Source: Kutzneria chonburiensis (GTDB taxonomy: Bacteria; Actinomycetota; Actinomycetes; Mycobacteriales; Pseudonocardiaceae). From it: a stretch of 64,000 nucleotides of DNA. The translations under genes were made by a program, and so were the position numbers. Position 1 is the stretch's first letter. Every line of letters begins with the position of its first letter. Below are positions 33,992 to 42,950 of the stretch, piece by piece. Under the pieces are notes generated by a model. The model saw only the letters and a program-made list of their open reading frames with translations, made no database searches and was not told the origin of the DNA. The stretch spans positions 3,720,001-3,784,000 of the forward strand of contig NZ_CP097263.1 in assembly GCF_028622115.1 (NCBI RefSeq), written 5' to 3'.

Positions 33992-34137
33992 GATCGGTTC
34001 GCGGCCGGTTCACGATAGGGGTGTAGCACCGCTACGGCGAGTGGCCGCGCCCAGGACCACCCGATCGGGTTGCGGTAGCCCTGGCCGGGGCCGCCGTCTA
34101 CGCTCGATCCTTCGGGCCGTGGACGGTGAGGTGGGGC

Positions 34138-34953
34138 ATGAACGGTGACCTGAGCTGGGTGCCGCCGGAGGTCGACCCGACCATCCCCCATCCGGCCCGG
34201 GTCTACGACTACTGGCTCGGCGGGGCGTCCAACTTCGCTGCCGACCGCGAGCTGGCCGAGAAGATCAACAAGATGATGCCCGGTGTCCCCCAGGCGGCCC
34301 GGTTCAACCGGGCCTTCCTGCGCCGGGCCGCCATCTTCATGGTCCGGTCGGGCGTGCGGCAGTTCCTCGACGTCGGCTCCGGCCTGCCGACCTCGGGCAA
34401 TCTGCACGAGATCGTGCAGCAGCAGGACCCGTCCTGCCGGGTGGTGTACGTCGACCGCGACCCGATCGCCGTGGCGCACAGCGAACTGCTGCTCCGGGGC
34501 AACGACAACGCCGCCGTGGTGCACGCCGACGCCCGCGACCACGCGAACATCCTGGGGTCGGACGAAGTCAAGCGGCTGCTGGACTTCTCCCAGCCCGTCG
34601 GCCTGTTCATGTTGCTGCTGCTGCACTTCATGCCGGACGAGTGGGACCCCGCCGGGGTGGTCGCCGGCTACCGCGACGCGATCCCGTCCGGCAGCTACTT
34701 CGCCGCCTCGCACGTGGCCGCCGACGGCGACGTGCGCAACCTCGGCGACGCCGTCAAGGTGTACGACCAGAACACCCACAACCAGCCCTTCCCGCGCACC
34801 CACGCCGAGGTGCTGCGGTTCTTCGACGGGTTCGACCTGGTCGAACCCGGTGTCGTCGGCTGTCCGATGTGGCGGCCGGACGGCATGGGCGGCATCTCCG
34901 ACGACCCGGGCATCAACTCCCTTCCCTACGCCGGGGTGGCCATCAAGCCTTAG
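34138..34953 (+). CDS. SAM-dependent methyltransferase, PF04672 (DUF574) family
   Basis: A 271-residue protein of the actinomycete-specific PF04672 family: PPEVDPTIPHPARVYDYWLGGASNFAADRE at the start, SAM site FLDVGSGLPTSGNLHE, VVYVDRDPIAVAHS and the partner strand HADARDHANIL. Streptomycetes and relatives encode dozens of these; few have known targets. ATG 34138 follows GAGGTGGGGC. Its stop codon overlaps the stop of the convergent NlpC/P60 gene. Confidence 0.92.
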   Translation: MNGDLSWVPPEVDPTIPHPARVYDYWLGGASNFAADRELAEKINKMMPGVPQAARFNRAFLRRAAIFMVRSGVRQFLDVGSGLPTSGNLHEIVQQQDPSCRVVYVDRDPIAVAHSELLLRGNDNAAVVHADARDHANILGSDEVKRLLDFSQPVGLFMLLLLHFMPDEWDPAGVVAGYRDAIPSGSYFAASHVAADGDVRNLGDAVKVYDQNTHNQPFPRTHAEVLRFFDGFDLVEPGVVGCPMWRPDGMGGISDDPGINSLPYAGVAIKP

Positions 34954-35864
34954 AGGCGACGGATTCCCCACAACCCGGCCGCGTACGGGCCGTCGTCGTC
35001 CAGCACGCTTCGCCCGCTGGAGTCGCCGAAACTGGGGCCGTTGGGCGTGCCGCGCGAGGCGATGAAACGCTGCTGGCCGGCGTCGTCGACCCCGAGGTAG
35101 ATGCCGACGTGGTCGACGGTTCCCTTGTTGCCGTCGGTGCTGAACAGCAGCAGATCCCCGGGCTGGGCCAGATAACGGGTCTGGGGCTGGCCGACGGCGT
35201 TGTCGGCGATGGCCGCGCCGAGCGGGGCCTTCGGCATCTCCGGCGGGGTGCGCGGCAAGCCGTTGTCACCGATCGGGTAGCCCATCCGGTAGCCGTAGAC
35301 CAGCCGGACGAAGCCGGCCGAGTCGACGTCGCCGAAGCGATCCTTCCTCGGTTTCACGCCACGGTTGGAGATGCCGAGGAAGTCGTTGTAGTCGGCGGCA
35401 TCGGCGTAGTGCGCGGAAGCGACGTACTGCGTTGCCACGGCAAGGATATCGGGACTGCGGTCGCCCAGCGCCTGCTCCAGCCACGGCCGGAACCAGGATT
35501 CCTTCTCGGCGCCGGATTTCCACGCCTGCGGGGCCAGGCGAACCCAGTTCGACGTGGTGACCAGGGCGCTGGTCCGCTGCGGATCGGCGAAGGTCCTGCT
35601 CGGTCCACTGAGGACCGTCGTTCGTGCGCCGTCGGTGAACATGGCCACCAGCCGGGCATGTTCGTCGAGCACGGCGGTCCGCGCTGGCCCGTCAAGGCGT
35701 ACGAAGCTGTAGTTGGTGCTGGATTGACGGGCCTGCGCGATGGCGACGACCGCCCCGTTGTCCCGGGCCCTCGTCGGCACGTCCTCGGCCTGGGCCAGAT
35801 GCACGACCGCGGCGCCGGAGGTGACCAGCGTCGTCAGCAACACTGCTGCACGGATGTGTTTCAC
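34950..35864 (-). CDS. Secreted NlpC/P60-like protein with Ser replacing the catalytic Cys
   Basis: A 304-residue exported protein. The signal peptide is MKHIRAAVLLTTLVTSGAAVVHLAQA. The C-terminal C40 fold is clear: DYNDFLGISNRGVKPRKDRFGDVDSAGFVRLVYGYRMG, QPGDLLLFS and TVDHVGIYLG. Canonical enzymes have Asp-Cys-Ser-Gly; here D181 is followed by S182 and A183, so the catalytic Cys is missing, while H252 remains. It is the last gene of the capB-capC operon (11 bases after capC), so it may bind or slowly cleave gamma-glutamyl linkages, or act as a non-catalytic wall or polymer-binding factor. Confidence 0.85.
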   Translation of the reverse strand: MKHIRAAVLLTTLVTSGAAVVHLAQAEDVPTRARDNGAVVAIAQARQSSTNYSFVRLDGPARTAVLDEHARLVAMFTDGARTTVLSGPSRTFADPQRTSALVTTSNWVRLAPQAWKSGAEKESWFRPWLEQALGDRSPDILAVATQYVASAHYADAADYNDFLGISNRGVKPRKDRFGDVDSAGFVRLVYGYRMGYPIGDNGLPRTPPEMPKAPLGAAIADNAVGQPQTRYLAQPGDLLLFSTDGNKGTVDHVGIYLGVDDAGQQRFIASRGTPNGPSFGDSSGRSVLDDDGPYAAGLWGIRRL

Positions 35865-35874
35865 GGCAAGGCTC

Positions 35875-36357
35875 CTACGAGGTCGGGATCAGACCGACCA
35901 GCACACCGCTGGCCAGCACTCCGTACGAGGCGAGGGCGACGGACCCGGTGGCCAGCACGGTCACCGCGGGCGGCTGGCGAACCAGTTGGTAGGCAATGAG
36001 TCCCGGCACCACGAAGCCCAGCGTCTCGTGCACGTACAGCAGCGGATAATGGTCCTGTATCAGCACGAACACTGTTGTCTGCAAGAGAACCCCGAGTAGC
36101 ACGACCGCGGCGAACTGCCGTTTGCCGTACAGGATCACGATTTTGCTCAGGCCGACGGTGGCCAGATACGTCAGCGCCGTGGTGAGCACCACGAGTGCGG
36201 CCCGACGGTAGTCCTCGACCAGGGTCAGGGCCAGCCAGCCCGGGGTGATCATGCCGCCCGGCGACAGGTTCGTGGTCAGGTAGCACAGCAGGGAGAACAA
36301 CAACCCGATGGCCAACCCCAGGGTGGCCACCTCCGGCGACAGCTCCTGGCTGATCAT
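35875..36357 (-). CDS. capC: Poly-gamma-glutamate synthase membrane subunit CapC/PgsC
   Basis: A 160-residue integral membrane protein: LGLAIGLLFSLLCYLTTNLSPGGMITPGWLAL, then YRRAALVVLTTALTYLATVGLSKIVILYGKRQFAAVVLLGVLL and further helices. This matches PgsC/CapC (usually about 150 residues), which with CapB forms the membrane gamma-polyglutamate synthase. The ATG overlaps the capB stop by four bases (ATGA), the usual capB-capC arrangement. Confidence 0.9.
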   Translation of the reverse strand: MISQELSPEVATLGLAIGLLFSLLCYLTTNLSPGGMITPGWLALTLVEDYRRAALVVLTTALTYLATVGLSKIVILYGKRQFAAVVLLGVLLQTTVFVLIQDHYPLLYVHETLGFVVPGLIAYQLVRQPPAVTVLATGSVALASYGVLASGVLVGLIPTS

Positions 36358-37529
36358 AGCCGCTCCAGTGTTTCCAGTTGGGCGAGCAGCACTTCGCCCT
36401 GGCCGTGGATGTTGCCGATGGCCGCGAGCGAGGCCTGACCGTCGATGCCGGCGACGAGCGCGTCCAACAGCTCGGGCGCGCTGCGCCGGCCGCCGAGATC
36501 GACCACCCGCGGCCGCCACGAGGACGGGATGGCGGTCAGCGCGCTGCGGGTCGGCTCCCCGATCAGCAGCACGCGATCCGGTTGCAGCCGCGGGATCAAA
36601 GCGCCCATCTGCCCGTTGCGCTCGATCCGGTCCGGCCGGCAGTTGATCACGATGTGCAGCGGCCGGCCGATCGCGCCGTGGTCGAGCAGGTGCTCGATGT
36701 TCATCACGGTCGACTCGGGATCGTTGGCCGCGAACACGTTCGCGAAGTGCAGCCGCTTGCCGCCGGCGGCGTAGCGGTCCACCCGCAGCACGCCGGGATC
36801 GGGCGGCGCGGCCCACATGCCCTCCATCGCGGCGGCGCGGTCGATGTCCAGCAGCTCGGCCACTTTCAGCGCGATGGCCACGTTCTCCTTGAACGTGATC
36901 CAGTCGAACGCCGCCAGCTCCTGGTCGGTCACGTCCTCGGGATCGACGGCGATCAGCCGGCAGTTCCGCTTGTCCGCCTCTTCCTGGAGGATGGGTAAAC
37001 GCTCGCGTTCAGCCGTGACACACACGCCGCCGACCGGCATCGACCGACACAGCGACCGGGCCACGTCGTCCAGCGTCGGCCCCATCTCGGCCAGGTGGTC
37101 CTCGCGCACGTTGCACAGCACGCCGATGTCCGAGCGGATCAGCTTGGTCTGGTTGATTTCCTGCAACGGCGGCGCGACGGCCATGCACTCCATCACCAGC
37201 ACGTCCGGGTCGTAGCCGGCGGCCCGCCGCACGATGGCGATCTGCTCGACCACGTTGGCAATGTTGAACTTCCGGTGCACCGGCTCCTCTCGGGCGTCGG
37301 GATGGATGAAACGCGCGGCGGTGCCGGTGGTTTTGGCGACCGTCACCAGACCACCGCCCCGAAGCGCACCGGCGCACAGCCGGGTGATCGACGACTTGCC
37401 GCGGATCCCGTTGACCAGCACGCGATGCGTGATGCGGGCCAGGTTCTTGTCGTGCCGGCGCTGTTCGACGATGCCGCATACCAGCAGCGCCAGGCAGGAC
37501 AGCGCGAAAACCGTGTAGAGGAAACGCAT
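36354..37529 (-). CDS. capB: Poly-gamma-glutamate synthase CapB/PgsB (Mur-ligase family)
   Basis: A 391-residue ATP-dependent amide ligase that extends a gamma-linked glutamate chain. The N-terminal membrane anchor is MRFLYTVFALSCLALLVCGI, the ATP-binding motif is VNGIRGKSSITRL, and VAKTTGTAARFI, VMECMAVAPPLQE and CNVREDHLAEMG are diagnostic of PgsB. ATG 37529 is eight bases from the stop of the sensor-like gene upstream. The operon has no capA/pgsA (export phosphoesterase-like) and no capE among its genes in this window. Confidence 0.93.
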   Translation of the reverse strand: MRFLYTVFALSCLALLVCGIVEQRRHDKNLARITHRVLVNGIRGKSSITRLCAGALRGGGLVTVAKTTGTAARFIHPDAREEPVHRKFNIANVVEQIAIVRRAAGYDPDVLVMECMAVAPPLQEINQTKLIRSDIGVLCNVREDHLAEMGPTLDDVARSLCRSMPVGGVCVTAERERLPILQEEADKRNCRLIAVDPEDVTDQELAAFDWITFKENVAIALKVAELLDIDRAAAMEGMWAAPPDPGVLRVDRYAAGGKRLHFANVFAANDPESTVMNIEHLLDHGAIGRPLHIVINCRPDRIERNGQMGALIPRLQPDRVLLIGEPTRSALTAIPSSWRPRVVDLGGRRSAPELLDALVAGIDGQASLAAIGNIHGQGEVLLAQLETLERL

Positions 37530-37537
37530 CCGTGCTC

Positions 37538-39595
37538 CTAGACCAGCTGGGGAACCGGGGCGGCGGCAGGGGTCCGCTGTCTGCGCGCGTCGTCGAGGCA
37601 CTGGCTCAGCGTGCCGATCTCGTTGAGCCGCTCCGGATAGATCACGGTCTTCAGATCCCCTTGCTCCATCAGGTTCGCAGCGGCGGCGAGACGGCGCAGC
37701 GGCCGTACGAAGCACAGGTGGTACCAGCCGAGCAGCAGCAGCCCGGCCGCACCGGCGGCCAGCGCGGCGAACAGGGCGTAGCGGCGAACCAGGTTGTCCG
37801 GCAAGGGAAGCGTGGTCAGCGGCTGCTGGAGCACGACCGTCCAGCGCAGCGGATCGGTGCTGGGCGAACCCGTCACGGTGGCGGCCGCGACGACGTACCA
37901 CTGGCCGTCGACCTGATCCGTGCCCGGCCGGCCGACACCGCCCAACGCGTCTGTTACACTTTGTTTCAGGGCCTGATCGGTCAGGGGATCAAAGGCCCGG
38001 TAGCCGTCGGCCGAGGCCAAGGTGCGCAGTCCGGAGTCGACGAGTTTGCCGTTTCCCGCGCTGCGCCGCAGGATCGAGGACAGCTTGGTCACGTCGAGCT
38101 CGCCGATCAGCACGTGCGTGCGGTCGGGCAGCGGCGTGCTGGCGTAGAGCACGGGGATGCGGCCGGCCGTGTTCTGTTGGTGCAGACCGGATCCGGTCGG
38201 TGGTCGCTCCACTGTGCGCAGTGGAGCGCGGCCGGCGTCGACCTGGACGGAGCCGTCCGCGTCGGTGACGTAGACGCTGCGGTAGCGCTTGTTCTGCGCG
38301 ATCAGGTTGGCCAGCGCCGGTTTCAGCGAGTTGACGTCGCCGGTGGCCCGGGTGGCGAAAGTCCGAAGATCACTCAGGCTGGCCGACAGCTGATCCCGCA
38401 GCGCCCCGGCGGTCACCTCGGCCAGGCCGCGCTCGCCCTGCACGACCAGGTCCGGCACGGTCGGCACGGTCTCGCCGGCGACCACGCCGACCACGGCCGA
38501 ACAGAGCAGGAGCGGCGCCACCGCCAGCAGGACGAACCGGCGCGCGGAAATCCGGCCACGCATGACCGGAAGGATCTCGTCGCGCAGCGCCGCCGACACC
38601 ACGGCGGCCTCGAAAAGCCGGTACCGGCGGCGACGGTGGCCGCCCAGCGCCTCGGCCCGCAGCCGCCGCAACGGCACCACGAAGCCGAATCCCAGCAGCA
38701 TCAGGCTGAGCAGCACCGCGGCCGCCAGCACCGCCGTCACCCAGGCGGTTTCCACCGGTGTCTGCACGTCCGCCTGTGCCGGCGCGGAGCCGACGAGGAC
38801 CAGGTTGAGACCGAGTGGCCGTGCCGGTTCACCCGTCTGAATCGGGGCGTAGACGGCAATCGGCGTCGTCCGCGAGCCATTGACCACCGGCCCCTTGCCG
38901 GCGTCGCCGACCATGCTGCCGACCGTCGTCGAGCGCCCGCTGGCCGTGGTCACGAGCTGCTGGTAGCCGGGATCGAACCGGCCGCGGGACTTGACCACCT
39001 GGCCGTCGGGCGTGGTCAGCAGCAGGGCCTCGGCCGGGTCCCCCAACAGCGTGTGGGCCGGGATCTTCAGGCCGGTGGTGACCAGGACCAGCCAGTTGGT
39101 CCCGGTCAGCGGGGCCGCGGTGAGCACCACCGTGCCGCCGGCCTGGTCGCGCACCAGCGTGACGGTGATCCGGTCGATGTCCTTGTTCGGCAACGACTCC
39201 ACCGGCACCGGTGCGCCGGTGCCGGCCAGCAGGGTGCCGGTGCCGCGCTGGACGAGGGCCAGGCCGAGGGCTTGCGGGGTGCCCCGGGTGATCGCGGCCA
39301 GCGTGCCGGCCGGCGACGGGTCCGGGTGCACGGTGTACAGGGCGCCGGCCGTGCTCAGGTCGCCGGCCACGTCGCTTATCGAATCGGCGGTGGCTCTGGC
39401 CAGGTCGTTCACGAGCAGTTCTTGTGATTGGGCCACGGCCGTCGGGCCGCCGCCGCCGCTGGCCGCGGCCGGCAACTGGATCACGCACCAGGCCACCAGC
39501 AGGACCAATGCCGCGCCGACAACTGCGAGCGGGGCTCGCAGTCCGCCCGGAAATCCACTCTCCACCGGCTCTGGGCCGGCCGAATTCGCCACCAC
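37538..39595 (-). CDS. Duplicated TM-extracellular-TM protein with C-terminal HAMP, no output domain
   Basis: A 685-residue membrane protein that heads the capBC operon. It looks like two copies of a sensor module: TM about 21-40, extracellular about 43-283, TM 284-307, a short cytoplasmic HAMP-like piece (VVPLRRLRAEALGG); then TM 352-373, extracellular 376-604 of Cache type (RYRSVYVTDADGSVQVDAG, WTVVLQQPL), TM 605-627 and a HAMP at 628-675 (FVRPLRRLAAAANLMEQGDL, LNEIGTLSQCLDDARRQ). No kinase, cyclase or chemotaxis domain follows. It may stand in for CapA or tune CapBC activity. GTG 39595 follows GGAG. Confidence 0.75.
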   Translation of the reverse strand: MVANSAGPEPVESGFPGGLRAPLAVVGAALVLLVAWCVIQLPAAASGGGGPTAVAQSQELLVNDLARATADSISDVAGDLSTAGALYTVHPDPSPAGTLAAITRGTPQALGLALVQRGTGTLLAGTGAPVPVESLPNKDIDRITVTLVRDQAGGTVVLTAAPLTGTNWLVLVTTGLKIPAHTLLGDPAEALLLTTPDGQVVKSRGRFDPGYQQLVTTASGRSTTVGSMVGDAGKGPVVNGSRTTPIAVYAPIQTGEPARPLGLNLVLVGSAPAQADVQTPVETAWVTAVLAAAVLLSLMLLGFGFVVPLRRLRAEALGGHRRRRYRLFEAAVVSAALRDEILPVMRGRISARRFVLLAVAPLLLCSAVVGVVAGETVPTVPDLVVQGERGLAEVTAGALRDQLSASLSDLRTFATRATGDVNSLKPALANLIAQNKRYRSVYVTDADGSVQVDAGRAPLRTVERPPTGSGLHQQNTAGRIPVLYASTPLPDRTHVLIGELDVTKLSSILRRSAGNGKLVDSGLRTLASADGYRAFDPLTDQALKQSVTDALGGVGRPGTDQVDGQWYVVAAATVTGSPSTDPLRWTVVLQQPLTTLPLPDNLVRRYALFAALAAGAAGLLLLGWYHLCFVRPLRRLAAAANLMEQGDLKTVIYPERLNEIGTLSQCLDDARRQRTPAAAPVPQLV

Positions 39596-39782
39596 GCGCG
39601 CGCTCCATGTTCAGGGTCCACAGAGGACGGTCAAACGCGGCGGCGGAGGTGCTGCGTTCCACTCGTACTGTCTACTTCATTGCCTATTAGAGTATGATCG
39701 GAGTCACAAGGCAAGCACTATTCGCAACGACACAACCGCGAGCGCCACCGCCAGGCAGCCCGAAACCCTCGGAGAATTCTTC

Positions 39783-40676
39783 TTGTCTGCACGGAATTGG
39801 CTGGTCACAGCGTTCGGGCTGGTCTGCGTCGCGGTGCTGGCGGTGATCAACATCCCGGACCGGATCCCCAAGGTCGACCTGGTCGAGCGAGCCTCACAGT
39901 TCGCCGCGGCCCTGCAATCGGACGCGCCGTACCGGCCACCTACGGTCCGTGAGGGAGAAACGGCCCTGTCTGGCCTGATTCCCCTGCTCACGGGCGGAAA
40001 GGACACTCAGAGTGAGCTGAAAACGCTTACTCCATTGGGTTTCACGCTGACCTCGGGCATCGATTCCACGAGCGGCCGTCGGTTCACCATGGCGGCGACC
40101 CAACCCGGCGACGAACAGGGGTGGGGCCTGTTCATCGGCGACTACGGTGCGCGAACGCGCCAGGTCATCGAGGTGCCGCACCCGAATTTCGATCTCAACA
40201 CGGAAATACTCGGCGTCCAGTTGTACCGGGCGCTGCCCGGATCCGCGGTGCTCATCGCCGGGGCCCACCGGCGGGCGGCCAACGGCACCGCCGATGTCGC
40301 GCACAACGCGAACAGCCTGTTCAACCTGGTGGCCACCGAGCTGGCCCGCAAGGGCCTGCCCCAGGTCCAGCTGCACGGCTTCGAGGACAGCAGCCTGCCC
40401 GGCACCGACGTGGTCGTGTCCGGCGGCTCCACCCCGCACACGCGTCTGCACGAGCAGATGGCCGACCACGTGGAGGCCGGCGGCATGGCGGTCTGCCGGG
40501 CCTGGCAGCAGAGCTGCGGCAACCTGGAGGGCACCACCAACGTGCAGGGACAGGCCGCCGACTCGATGGGCACGGTGTTCGCGCACATCGAGTCGGACGG
40601 CTCCGTCCGGATGGACCCTCAGCGGCGCGACCGTCTGGTGGCCGCGCTGGCCGCCGCGATCACTGCTGGCCCATAG
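39783..40676 (+). CDS. Membrane-anchored metal-hydrolase-like protein divergent from the capBC operon
   Basis: A 297-residue protein with an N-terminal anchor (NWLVTAFGLVCVAVLAVINIP). The middle carries VIEVPHPNFDLNTEILGVQLYRA with H133 and E141 as candidate metal ligands, LIAGAHRRAANG, DVAHNANSLFNLVATELA and QLHGFE with H198, then a late FAHIE. This His/Glu spacing recalls zinc amidohydrolases or carboxypeptidases, including polyglutamate hydrolase-like folds, but I do not recognise the family. TTG 39783 follows GGAG. Divergence from the capBC operon suggests cell-surface processing of its polymer. Confidence 0.6.
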   Translation: MSARNWLVTAFGLVCVAVLAVINIPDRIPKVDLVERASQFAAALQSDAPYRPPTVREGETALSGLIPLLTGGKDTQSELKTLTPLGFTLTSGIDSTSGRRFTMAATQPGDEQGWGLFIGDYGARTRQVIEVPHPNFDLNTEILGVQLYRALPGSAVLIAGAHRRAANGTADVAHNANSLFNLVATELARKGLPQVQLHGFEDSSLPGTDVVVSGGSTPHTRLHEQMADHVEAGGMAVCRAWQQSCGNLEGTTNVQGQAADSMGTVFAHIESDGSVRMDPQRRDRLVAALAAAITAGP

Positions 40677-41844
40677 CGTCGACCACCTTGGTGGTCAGGG
40701 AGGTGCTGCTCAGCTGCGTGCCGGCCTTGATGCCGTGCCAGTCGGCGGTCAGCACCACGCGCGAGCCCAGGTACTGGCCGGTGGTGGTGTCGATGATCAG
40801 CTCCTCCAGCTGGGAGTCGTGCACCAGACCGAACGCCTGCCCGTGCCGGCCGTCCAGGTCGACGTCCTGGCCGACGACCTTGAGGTCGGGCAGGTAGGCC
40901 AGCGCCTGGAAGACCGCCTTGCGCAGGTCGGTCGGGATCAGGCCGGTGTCCAGCCCGAACTGGATCCGGCGCAGCAGCTCGATGCCTTCGTCGCCCGCGG
41001 CCTCGGCCCGCAGCTTCGTGTACAGCTGCTTCGGGTCGCGGGGCAGCGCCGCCAGGTAGGCCGGGGTGGGGTCCTCGAAGTTCGCCGCCTCCTTGTCACC
41101 GAAGAACGCTCCGTCACGGGCCTTCCAGTCGCCGAGCACCATCGGGTCCGGGATGGTCGTCGACAGGTCGGCGGCCGAGCCCTTCAGGAACGTCTTGCGG
41201 CCCGAGCTGGTCCGCCGGTGCTCCCAGGTCTGGGCCTGGTCGGCCGGCACCCAGGTCTCGTAGACCTCGTCCTGGAGGTAGAGGTACTTGACGTCGTCGC
41301 CGGGCCCGTTGCCGGAACCGCCGGAGATCGCGCGGTTGCGCACGTACAGGAACTGGCCCGGCTGGAGCACCACGTCCCCGGTCTTGCTGGCCGCCTGGCT
41401 CAGCGCCTCCGCCGCCACCGCGCTGCCGATCCTCGGCTCGGGTCCGTCGCCATGAGGCACGACCGAGGGGCCGACCAGGGCGACCACCATCACGCCGACC
41501 ACCACTGCGGCCGCCACCAGCCACGCCACGTGCCCGCGCCGACGGCGCTGGAGCGGCACCACAGCGGCTGGGGCAGCCCCGGGCGCGGCCGCAGCTGCCG
41601 GCACGACCGGGGCACCCGCCACCGGCACGGCTGCCGGAGTTTCCGGCACTGCCGGAGTGCTCTCCGCGACTACCGGAGCGCTCTCCGCCTGCACGGGAGC
41701 CGTCTCCGGGGCGCGGCCCATCCGGGCCAGCAGCTTGGCCCGGCCGGCCGTGAAGGCCTCGTCGGACATCTCGGGCAGTTCCGACACCGCCCGCTTGACC
41801 ACACCGTCCTCGGCCGGCCGCAGTCCGTCACGCATCGTCCTCAC
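40660..41844 (-). CDS. CU044_5270 family membrane protein (ECF sigma partner)
   Basis: A 394-residue protein of the family annotated CU044_5270. An N-terminal cytoplasmic part (PEMSDEAFTAGRAKLLARMG) is followed by an Ala/Pro/Val-rich linker, one TM helix at about residues 108-128 (AWLVAAAVVVGVMVVALVG) and an extracellular domain (GQFLYVRNRAISGG, YETWVPADQAQTWEHRRTSSG, GLVHDSQLEELIIDTTTGQYLGS). It overlaps the sigma gene by 17 bases and probably acts as its anti-sigma or signal-sensing partner. Confidence 0.85.
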   Translation of the reverse strand: MRTMRDGLRPAEDGVVKRAVSELPEMSDEAFTAGRAKLLARMGRAPETAPVQAESAPVVAESTPAVPETPAAVPVAGAPVVPAAAAAPGAAPAAVVPLQRRRRGHVAWLVAAAVVVGVMVVALVGPSVVPHGDGPEPRIGSAVAAEALSQAASKTGDVVLQPGQFLYVRNRAISGGSGNGPGDDVKYLYLQDEVYETWVPADQAQTWEHRRTSSGRKTFLKGSAADLSTTIPDPMVLGDWKARDGAFFGDKEAANFEDPTPAYLAALPRDPKQLYTKLRAEAAGDEGIELLRRIQFGLDTGLIPTDLRKAVFQALAYLPDLKVVGQDVDLDGRHGQAFGLVHDSQLEELIIDTTTGQYLGSRVVLTADWHGIKAGTQLSSTSLTTKVVDAMGQQ

Positions 41845-42364
41845 CCTCCTGTCCGTTGATCCGCGCGCGCAGTTTGCCCCTGGCCCGGAACAGCCGGGTC
41901 CGGACGGTGGCCACCGGGGTGTCCGTCACCTCGGCCACCTCGGCCGGCGACAGGTCGGCCCAGGCCACCAGCAGCAGCACGTCCCGCTCCTCGGGCCGCA
42001 GCCCGGCCAGCGTGTCGGCCAGGTCGCCGACCAGGCTCTCGGCGTCGATGACCGCGGCCGTGCGGTCGTCGAGCCGGTCGGCCACGACCCGGCGGCCGTG
42101 GTCGCGGGCCAGCGCCCGCAGCCGGCGGCCCTCGGACCGCACGTGCTGGCGCAGCATGTTCGTGGCGATGCCGTACAGCCAGGCCCGCAGGCTGGCCCGG
42201 CTCGGGTCGAAGTCGGCCCGCCGCTCCCAGACCACGAGGAACGCCTCCGACACGAGGTCGTCGGCGACCTGCGGATCCACCCTCATGGCCAGGTACCGGT
42301 GCAGCGTCCGGGCATGGTTGTCGTACAGCTCGACCAGCTCGTCGGCGTCGCGCAGCCCCGTCAC
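41828..42364 (-). CDS. ECF-type RNA polymerase sigma factor
   Basis: A 178-residue sigma-70 family protein. Region 2 reads LVELYDNHARTLHRYLAMRVDPQVADDLVSEAFLVVWERR, and region 4 reads LRPEERDVLLLVAWADLSPAEVAEVTDTPVATVRTRLFRARGKLR. GTG 42364 is chosen because GGGAGGG lies six bases upstream; upstream codons lack family similarity. It is coupled to the CU044_5270 gene, the standard layout for this ECF group in actinomycetes. Confidence 0.93.
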   Translation of the reverse strand: MTGLRDADELVELYDNHARTLHRYLAMRVDPQVADDLVSEAFLVVWERRADFDPSRASLRAWLYGIATNMLRQHVRSEGRRLRALARDHGRRVVADRLDDRTAAVIDAESLVGDLADTLAGLRPEERDVLLLVAWADLSPAEVAEVTDTPVATVRTRLFRARGKLRARINGQEGEDDA

Positions 42365-42458
42365 CTCCGGCCCTCCCGTTCGCGCCAGCGGCGCCGTCTC
42401 ACTGCTCACCGAACATATTGGCCGGTGGCCGTCCGCGCGTTCCCGTACCGTCGGACGG

Positions 42459-42950
42459 GTGACGACTTGGCAGGAGTTCTCCGAGGTCGCGCCGAAGATC
42501 GCCGCGATCTTCCACCGGCGGCACACCGCCACCGGCAACCTGTGCTTCCTGGCCACGCTGCGTTCCGACGGCGCACCGCGGATCAGCCCGATGGAACCCC
42601 GCATCTTCGAGGGACAGCTGTGGCTCGGGGGCATGCCCGGCACCACCAAGTTCCTGGACCTGGCCCGGGATCCCCGGTTCTGCCTGCACACAGCCACAGT
42701 GGACACCGACGTGTCCGACGGGGACGCCAAGCTGTGGGGCACCGTGTACGACGTGCAGGACCTCGACCTGCACGCCCGCTATGCCGAGAACCTGTTCCAG
42801 GAAACCGGCTTCGACCTGCGCGGGCAGCGGTTCAGCCCGTTCTACGCGGCCGACCTCACCAGCGCCTCGGCGGTCGAGGTCGGCGGCGGGCACATGGACG
42901 TGACGATCTGGCGGCCGGGTGAGCCCGAGCGGGTCGTCCGCAAGCACTGA
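42459..42950 (+). CDS. Pyridoxamine 5'-phosphate oxidase family protein
   Basis: A 163-residue split-barrel flavin-type protein: FSEVAPKIAAIFHRRHTATGNLCFLATLRSDGAPRISPM, then GGMPGTTKFLDLARDPRFCLHTATVDT and DAKLWGTVYDV. These proteins bind FMN, F420 or heme and reduce or oxidise small molecules. GTG 42459 is preferred. It is divergent from the ECF gene with about 95 bases between, which must hold both promoters. Confidence 0.88.
   Translation: MTTWQEFSEVAPKIAAIFHRRHTATGNLCFLATLRSDGAPRISPMEPRIFEGQLWLGGMPGTTKFLDLARDPRFCLHTATVDTDVSDGDAKLWGTVYDVQDLDLHARYAENLFQETGFDLRGQRFSPFYAADLTSASAVEVGGGHMDVTIWRPGEPERVVRKH

Follow-up and report, generated by a model that had tools for sequence, protein, structure and literature searches.

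Introduction

In the literature that we found, the synthesis of poly-gamma-glutamate (PGA) has been studied almost only in Bacillus. The PgsB-PgsC-PgsA-PgsE (CapBCAE) system of that genus is among the closest described counterparts of the locus analyzed here. In Bacillus, pgdS is located beside the pgs operon. The present locus belongs to the actinomycete Kutzneria chonburiensis and spans positions 34950-40676 of a stretch of 64,000 nucleotides (contig NZ_CP097263.1, positions 3,720,001 to 3,784,000), referred to below as the window. It consists of a minus-strand operon encoding, in this order, a sensor-like protein, CapB, CapC and an NlpC/P60-fold protein, and of a divergent gene for a membrane-anchored protein. 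We report that it is a real, conserved actinomycete form of PGA locus, and that its capB-capC core has been homogenised by gene conversion with a second locus of the same genome.

PgdS is described as an NlpC/P60 hydrolase of PGA (PMC5880399), PGA genes are reported to be common in Streptomyces (PMC6506827), and pgsB and pghP have been surveyed (PMC4497714); the capBC genes of PMC12008989 are presented there as pilus genes. An open-access literature search, judged by title and the start of the abstract, found no paper on a sensor-linked capBC module.

Organization of the locus

The features of the locus are as follows.

34950..35864, minus strand: NlpC/P60-fold protein, 304 amino acids, Ser for the catalytic Cys, His kept (PF00877, family alignment)
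35875..36357, minus strand: capC/pgsC membrane subunit, 160 amino acids (PF14102; TIGR04011 below cut-off)
35880..37430: capB-capC gene-conversion tract common with the second locus L084 at 4.10 Mb, ends approximate
36354..37529, minus strand: capB/pgsB, PGA synthase subunit (Mur-ligase type), 391 amino acids (TIGR04012, PF08245)
37538..39595, minus strand: sensor-like protein, 685 amino acids, two units of the type transmembrane helix (TM)-dCache-TM(-HAMP), without output domain
39596..39782: divergent intergenic region, 187 base pairs, presumed promoter region for the operon and the hydrolase gene, from the layout
39783..40676, plus strand: membrane-anchored protein, predicted PghP fold, probable zinc hydrolase, 297 amino acids, TTG start

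A preliminary description of this DNA had proposed an operon with a divergent gene and neither capA nor capE inside, an arrangement that is confirmed with exact coordinates. The sensor and capB genes are separated by 8 nucleotides, capB and capC overlap by ATGA, and capC and the NlpC gene are separated by 10 nucleotides, which leaves no room between the operon genes for a gene of the size of capA or capE. The identification of capB and capC is borne out by profile scores: CapB reaches 374.9 bits against the PgsB equivalog TIGR04012 (cut-off 222.7) and CapC 113.6 bits against PF14102 (cut-off 27), with 75.7 bits against the PgsC equivalog TIGR04011, under its cut-off of 96.45. A PDB sequence search with CapB gave no match at E 0.01. 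The ratio of nonsynonymous to synonymous substitution rates (dN/dS) of all five genes against same-genus copies is 0.02-0.55, consistent with purifying selection.

Like the Bacillus system, the organism has CapB, CapC, a CapA somewhere in the genome and an NlpC/P60 protein near the synthase. The locus differs from it by the dCache-HAMP sensor and the PghP-fold anchored protein, by an unlinked capA (where a PgsBCA locus encodes CapA/PgsA, the sole PF09587 match of this genome lies at 7.1 Mb), by the lack of capE in the locus and by the loss of the NlpC Cys. The classical actinobacterial capB-capC-capA loci (L203-L213, L215) have CapB, CapC and CapA in common with the module but contain no sensor, follow the order capB-capC-capA and score far lower with a CapB hidden Markov model of the window family (252-319 bits, versus 628-790 bits for module loci).

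Conservation of the module

The preliminary description had proposed surveying actinomycete capB-capC neighbourhoods for the same partners. From the 355 relatives returned by a CapB scan, we retained the best 80 and added the two copies of the genome itself, giving 82 loci; this choice biases the sample to near kin, and the three nearest CapB relatives are from Kutzneria (89-92%). An open reading frame (ORF) of the sensor family adjoins capB upstream in all 82 loci, although it is cut by a contig end or broken in a few (L022, L061). An NlpC/P60 relative accompanies 80 of the 82 (one locus, L071, stops at a contig end, and none was found in L076), and a member of the divergent hydrolase family accompanies 62 of the 75 loci that could be evaluated. 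A frequent complete arrangement is hydrolase (divergent), capA, sensor, capB, capC, NlpC. When codon-filtered ORFs were clustered, non-module clusters covered at most 10 loci, except for two antisense shadow clusters of 13 and 17 loci.

A wider test was made on 200 genomes of the bacterial family, 34 of which have CapC above the cut-off. Among the 47 CapC matches above the cut-off, 44 have a sensor and 40 a hydrolase gene within 8 kb, and 48 of 50 sensor matches above 100 bits are near CapC. The hydrolase family occurs in all 34 CapC-positive genomes versus 15 of the 166 others; in three of the former (G398, G530, G594) the sole copy is away from CapC, and around seven unlinked copies from other genomes or contigs no capB, capC or sensor was found within a context of 14-15 kb. 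These data and the 82 neighbourhoods lead us to reject the idea that the partners are not conserved, and they support the proposed actinobacterial variant, in which amide-linked polymer synthesis has sensing and processing parts of its own.

Farther afield, the hydrolase family is found in six of 246 genomes of the class, five being the genomes of the class that were CapC-positive in the phylum scan described next; in the sixth (G851), capC, capB and a single-unit sensor adjoin it. Across the phylum, CapC was detected at E 0.001 in 24 of 396 genomes, 21 of them above the cut-off. The 20 regions examined, which come from 19 genomes once the organism itself and weak or partial matches are set aside, comprise 12 classical capB-capC-capA loci without sensor, five sensor modules and three other or cut-off types. 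Two loci (L217, L247) are minimal modules, with a single-unit sensor of about 400 amino acids, capB, capC and one or more hydrolase genes, and no NlpC or capA was found within the stretch examined; in L217, the hydrolase gene occupies the usual place of NlpC. These minimal forms point to a core made of sensor, CapB, CapC and hydrolase.

Other arrangements were observed in passing. Another type of capBC locus, with capC genes in tandem, has a hydrolase-family gene nearby and no sensor that we could find (L221 in G139, and G572:C30), and a single genome, G557, holds five CapC matches in several locus types.

A second locus and gene conversion

At 4.10 Mb the genome has another capC, again accompanied by the complete module (L084). 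Between the two loci, capB-capC is 86-100% identical per 60-nucleotide step, versus 54-83% in the neighbouring sensor and NlpC steps; per 300-nucleotide step, the hydrolase, sensor and NlpC genes and the flanks are 46-78% identical. The homogenised tract covers 35880-37430 of the window, corresponding to about 5940-7490 of L084. Agreement at fourfold sites follows the same division, with 88% for capB, 81% for capC and 54-62% for the other three genes. Orthologues between K. chonburiensis and Kutzneria sp. CA-103260 (L005, L006) are 74-88% identical per 300-nucleotide step from hydrolase to NlpC, apart from one intergenic step at 66%, and the two loci of the latter display an identical pattern of capB-capC homogenisation. 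The trees conflict accordingly: capBC pairs both loci of each genome (100/100), while in the sensor and NlpC trees the loci sort by type (100/100). The capB-capC core is thus homogenised by gene conversion between the two loci of the genome. Such conversion is not a general trait: in a comparison of seven genomes that each hold two or three loci, made after exclusion of rows with fewer than 50 comparable sites, both Kutzneria genomes show it clearly, G422 may show it in capB alone, and the remaining four show no sign of it. Homogenised capBC next to diverged partners indicates that the synthase core is kept uniform while inputs and processing enzymes diverge.

Probable relocation of capA

The 10.4-Mb genome encodes a single PF09587 (CapA) protein, of 767 amino acids, at 7.1 Mb, and the idea that the organism has no CapA is therefore rejected. 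Nor does the absence of capA define the module, as the preliminary description had it: capA adjoins the sensor on the sensor strand in 33 of 76 evaluable loci (in L080 it lies on the opposite strand). That description had also named a capA elsewhere pairing with capBC as what would overturn it, and this situation is closely approached, since 10 of the 200 family genomes, each of them CapC-positive, encode a member of the subfamily of the 767-residue CapA at E up to 1e-20 (Fisher 5.8e-9, uncorrected for kinship). Five of these copies, outside Kutzneria, are within 8 kb of capC, and the five in the genus are unlinked. The CapB tree places the window locus and its same-type kin with the three loci that carry this large CapA type (SH-aLRT, the Shimodaira-Hasegawa-like approximate likelihood ratio test, 90, in a quick tree where long branches meet at this point). 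We therefore read the absence of capA as relocation and not as a CapA-free design. Weighing against this reading, no PF09587 match was found in two CapC-positive genomes of the same genus (G414, G452), in the genome of L070 or in that of L007, which may be the same as G452. The mere presence of CapA somewhere in a genome is of little diagnostic value: of the roughly 77 genomes that hold the loci, 50 were taken, and 48 of these have PF09587, as do 140 of the 200 family genomes (32 of the 34 CapC-positive versus 108 of the 166 others, Fisher 4e-4).

The alternative put forward earlier, a truly CapA-independent synthase making an all-L polymer, with sensor and NlpC taking over the role of CapA, is an unlikely one. 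It can draw on the 43 of 76 evaluable loci without same-strand capA beside the sensor and on the capC genomes devoid of CapA just named. It can also draw on B. subtilis, for which PMC6029982 reports that pgsBC without pgsA yields L-rich PGA with a D/L ratio of 5/95, although an earlier study cited there obtained no PGA without pgsA. However, 32 loci have both sensor and NlpC next to a capA, so that these two do not replace it, and both the restriction of the large CapA to capC-bearing genomes of the sample, with its proximity to capC outside Kutzneria, and the position of the window CapB beside large-CapA loci in the quick tree speak against this alternative. According to PMC7168211, which cites Ogasawara et al., CapA/PgsA epimerises L-Glu as the chain grows; together with the 5/95 ratio, this implies that loss of capA should alter chirality and not abolish synthesis. 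The large CapA and the CapA proteins of the loci match the epimerase model MslH weakly, far under its cut-off.

The unlinked gene for the large CapA stands about 50 base pairs behind a glutamate decarboxylase gene (TIGR01788; L085:5411-9166 for the two), a pair kept in five of five same-genus genomes with this CapA. A few kb away, at L085:2501-3376, is a gene that looks by eye similar to the methyltransferase gene that flanks the window locus.

The sensor-like protein

The preliminary description of a 685-residue protein with duplicated TM units, a terminal HAMP and no output domain is borne out. The two halves of the family alignment match each other in hhalign (99.6%, E 2.9e-24, 324 columns), and the protein is a true internal duplication. 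HAMP is matched at 25.7 bits (cut-off 25), and dCache_1 at 37.5 bits over residues 391-588, a region that we assign to the dCache domains although the score falls below the cut-off of 45. By eye, the first unit also ends with a HAMP in relatives, and the first HAMP of the window protein is shortened. No kinase or signalling domain was found by profile search, and the chain ends 20 residues past the HAMP match. The TM-dCache-TM-HAMP unit is that of dCache chemoreceptors and histidine kinases (such as the sensor domains of PctA, DctB and KinD), from which the module protein differs by its duplication within one chain and its lack of a signalling output domain.

For want of an output domain, this protein most likely acts directly on the adjacent CapB-CapC. 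It could instead be a structural co-subunit or export scaffold of CapBC, with Cache domains holding the chain, as its constant adjacency to capB, the missing output domain and the single-unit versions of L217 and L247 would allow. We consider this rather improbable, because the classical loci of other classes (12 of the 20 phylum regions) do without it, and because the sensor diverges between the two loci of the genome while the core is homogenised, which fits a locus-specific input better than a fixed interface.

The divergent anchored protein

The divergent gene encodes, as described earlier, a membrane-anchored hydrolase-like protein; its predicted fold, that of the PghP poly-gamma-glutamate hydrolase, had not been foreseen. 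It resembles PghP/PghL (PF05908, MEROPS M86) in this fold and in the order of two His, an acidic residue and a catalytic Glu. H133, D137, H198 and E270, invariant in 73 of 73 sequences, are ordered like the zinc ligands H40/E45/H103 and the catalytic E165 of PghP, with Asp for the ligand Glu. We consider the protein a probable zinc hydrolase. It differs from PghP/PghL by this Asp, by a membrane or lipid anchor and by the lack of a PF05908 match, none being found in 23 family members (Pfam, E up to 10) or in the genome itself; the same 23 members match six other families, one member each, with a best E of 0.039. Most members of the divergent family, moreover, go with a synthase locus, in contrast to PghP-like genes, which PMC4497714 connects with phages. 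A PDB sequence search with the family returned only weak matches to a complex I subunit (best E 0.041).

It seems doubtful that the protein acts as an amidohydrolase on small gamma-glutamyl or N-acyl-glutamate compounds and not as a polymer hydrolase: PghP scores equally well or higher, an N-terminal anchor or lipobox (by eye) places the protein outside the cell, and a family member is present in every CapC-positive genome of both samples.

The NlpC/P60 protein

The last operon gene encodes a member of the NlpC/P60 fold family (27.8 bits against PF00877, cut-off 23) in which DSAG replaces DCSG, placing Ser at the Cys position while the His is kept; the Cys-less protein of the preliminary description is thus verified and lacks the hallmark of an active Cys peptidase. 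It is a local trait and not one of the module, given that 62 of the 80 loci with the gene have Cys at this position, against 15 with Ser, two with Pro and one with Ala (the His is present in 76), and that the Cys changes map to two places on the tree. A dN/dS of 0.21-0.25 against L005 and L004 indicates that the Cys-less protein is maintained. PgdS of B. subtilis, described in PMC5880399 as combining one active NlpC/P60 domain with two others (domains 1 and 3) in which Pro or Thr replaces the Cys, offers a precedent for non-catalytic NlpC in PGA handling.

Where both states are known, Cys occurs in 29 loci with capA and 28 without, Ser in 0 and 14, and Pro or Ala in 3 and 0; with two changes of Cys state on the tree and an independent-pairs test limited to n=2 pairs, a link between Cys loss and capA absence cannot be claimed. 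A conceivable reason for such a link would be that a D-dependent cutter might serve no purpose on a purely L polymer. A Streptomyces clade (L009, L018, L020, L021, L023, L024, L026, L027, L028, L044) underwent Cys to Ser on its own branch; its loci lack capA in nine of nine evaluable cases and the hydrolase gene in seven of seven. Each of three classical loci of other classes (L208, L212, L215) is flanked by a divergent NlpC/P60 gene that belongs to this subfamily.

Flanking genes and regulatory sequences

The 3' end of the NlpC gene overlaps by four nucleotides a convergent gene for a Methyltransf_19 S-adenosylmethionine-dependent methyltransferase (34126-34953, plus strand). On the other side, a CU044_5270 family protein gene behind a gene for an ECF (extracytoplasmic function) sigma factor adjoins the locus (40660-42742, minus strand). 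A promoter between the operon and the hydrolase gene is suggested by the layout; a scan of this region for the sigma-70 consensus gave no match. The terminator scan was at chance level, and an Rfam scan at the gathering threshold gave no match.

Discussion

We propose that the locus is a sensor-linked PGA module of actinomycetes, an explanation to which, taken as a whole, we give a probability of roughly 60%. CapB, as an ATP-dependent ligase, and CapC, as the membrane subunit, would polymerise and export PGA, while the double dCache-HAMP protein would read an extracellular ligand, with an amino acid, a PGA fragment or an ion as candidates. The divergent anchored hydrolase may trim or release the polymer. 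The NlpC/P60 protein is probably a PgdS-like cutter in most relatives and, having lost its Cys here, is perhaps kept as a polymer- or wall-binding module. The 767-residue CapA at 7.1 Mb, as a putative epimerase adding D-Glu, may serve both capBC loci; gene conversion keeps their synthase cores alike, and sensor and hydrolase stay particular to each locus. The least probable alternative is that the product is a different polymer of gamma-amide or Glu-derived type, for although CapC falls under the PgsC equivalog cut-off and CapB is far from its classical actinobacterial counterparts, CapB stands well above the PgsB equivalog cut-off and a protein of PGA-hydrolase fold is encoded alongside.

The window locus looks like a derived member of the module, with capA elsewhere and an NlpC without Cys. 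A more specific form of the explanation, which we advance tentatively and at clearly less than even chances, would make the double dCache-HAMP protein a hard-wired, phosphorelay-free sensor gating CapB-CapC in the membrane; the two conversion-homogenised synthase copies of one genome, under two diverged sensor-hydrolase sets, would then answer two cues, and the trimming would fall to anchored gamma-PGA zinc hydrolases that form an undescribed family of their own, dedicated to this task.

In an actinomycete lineage, the synthase is here coupled both with a sensor-like protein that has no known output and with a hydrolase-like family so far unrecognised, an arrangement in which sensing, synthesis and trimming would seem to form a single unit. 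If the proposed explanation is true, the module would provide a genetic handle on the tuning of polymer output outside Bacilli and a source of new gamma-PGA hydrolases, and its two loci, with the same core and different sensors, would constitute a natural experiment on sensor function.
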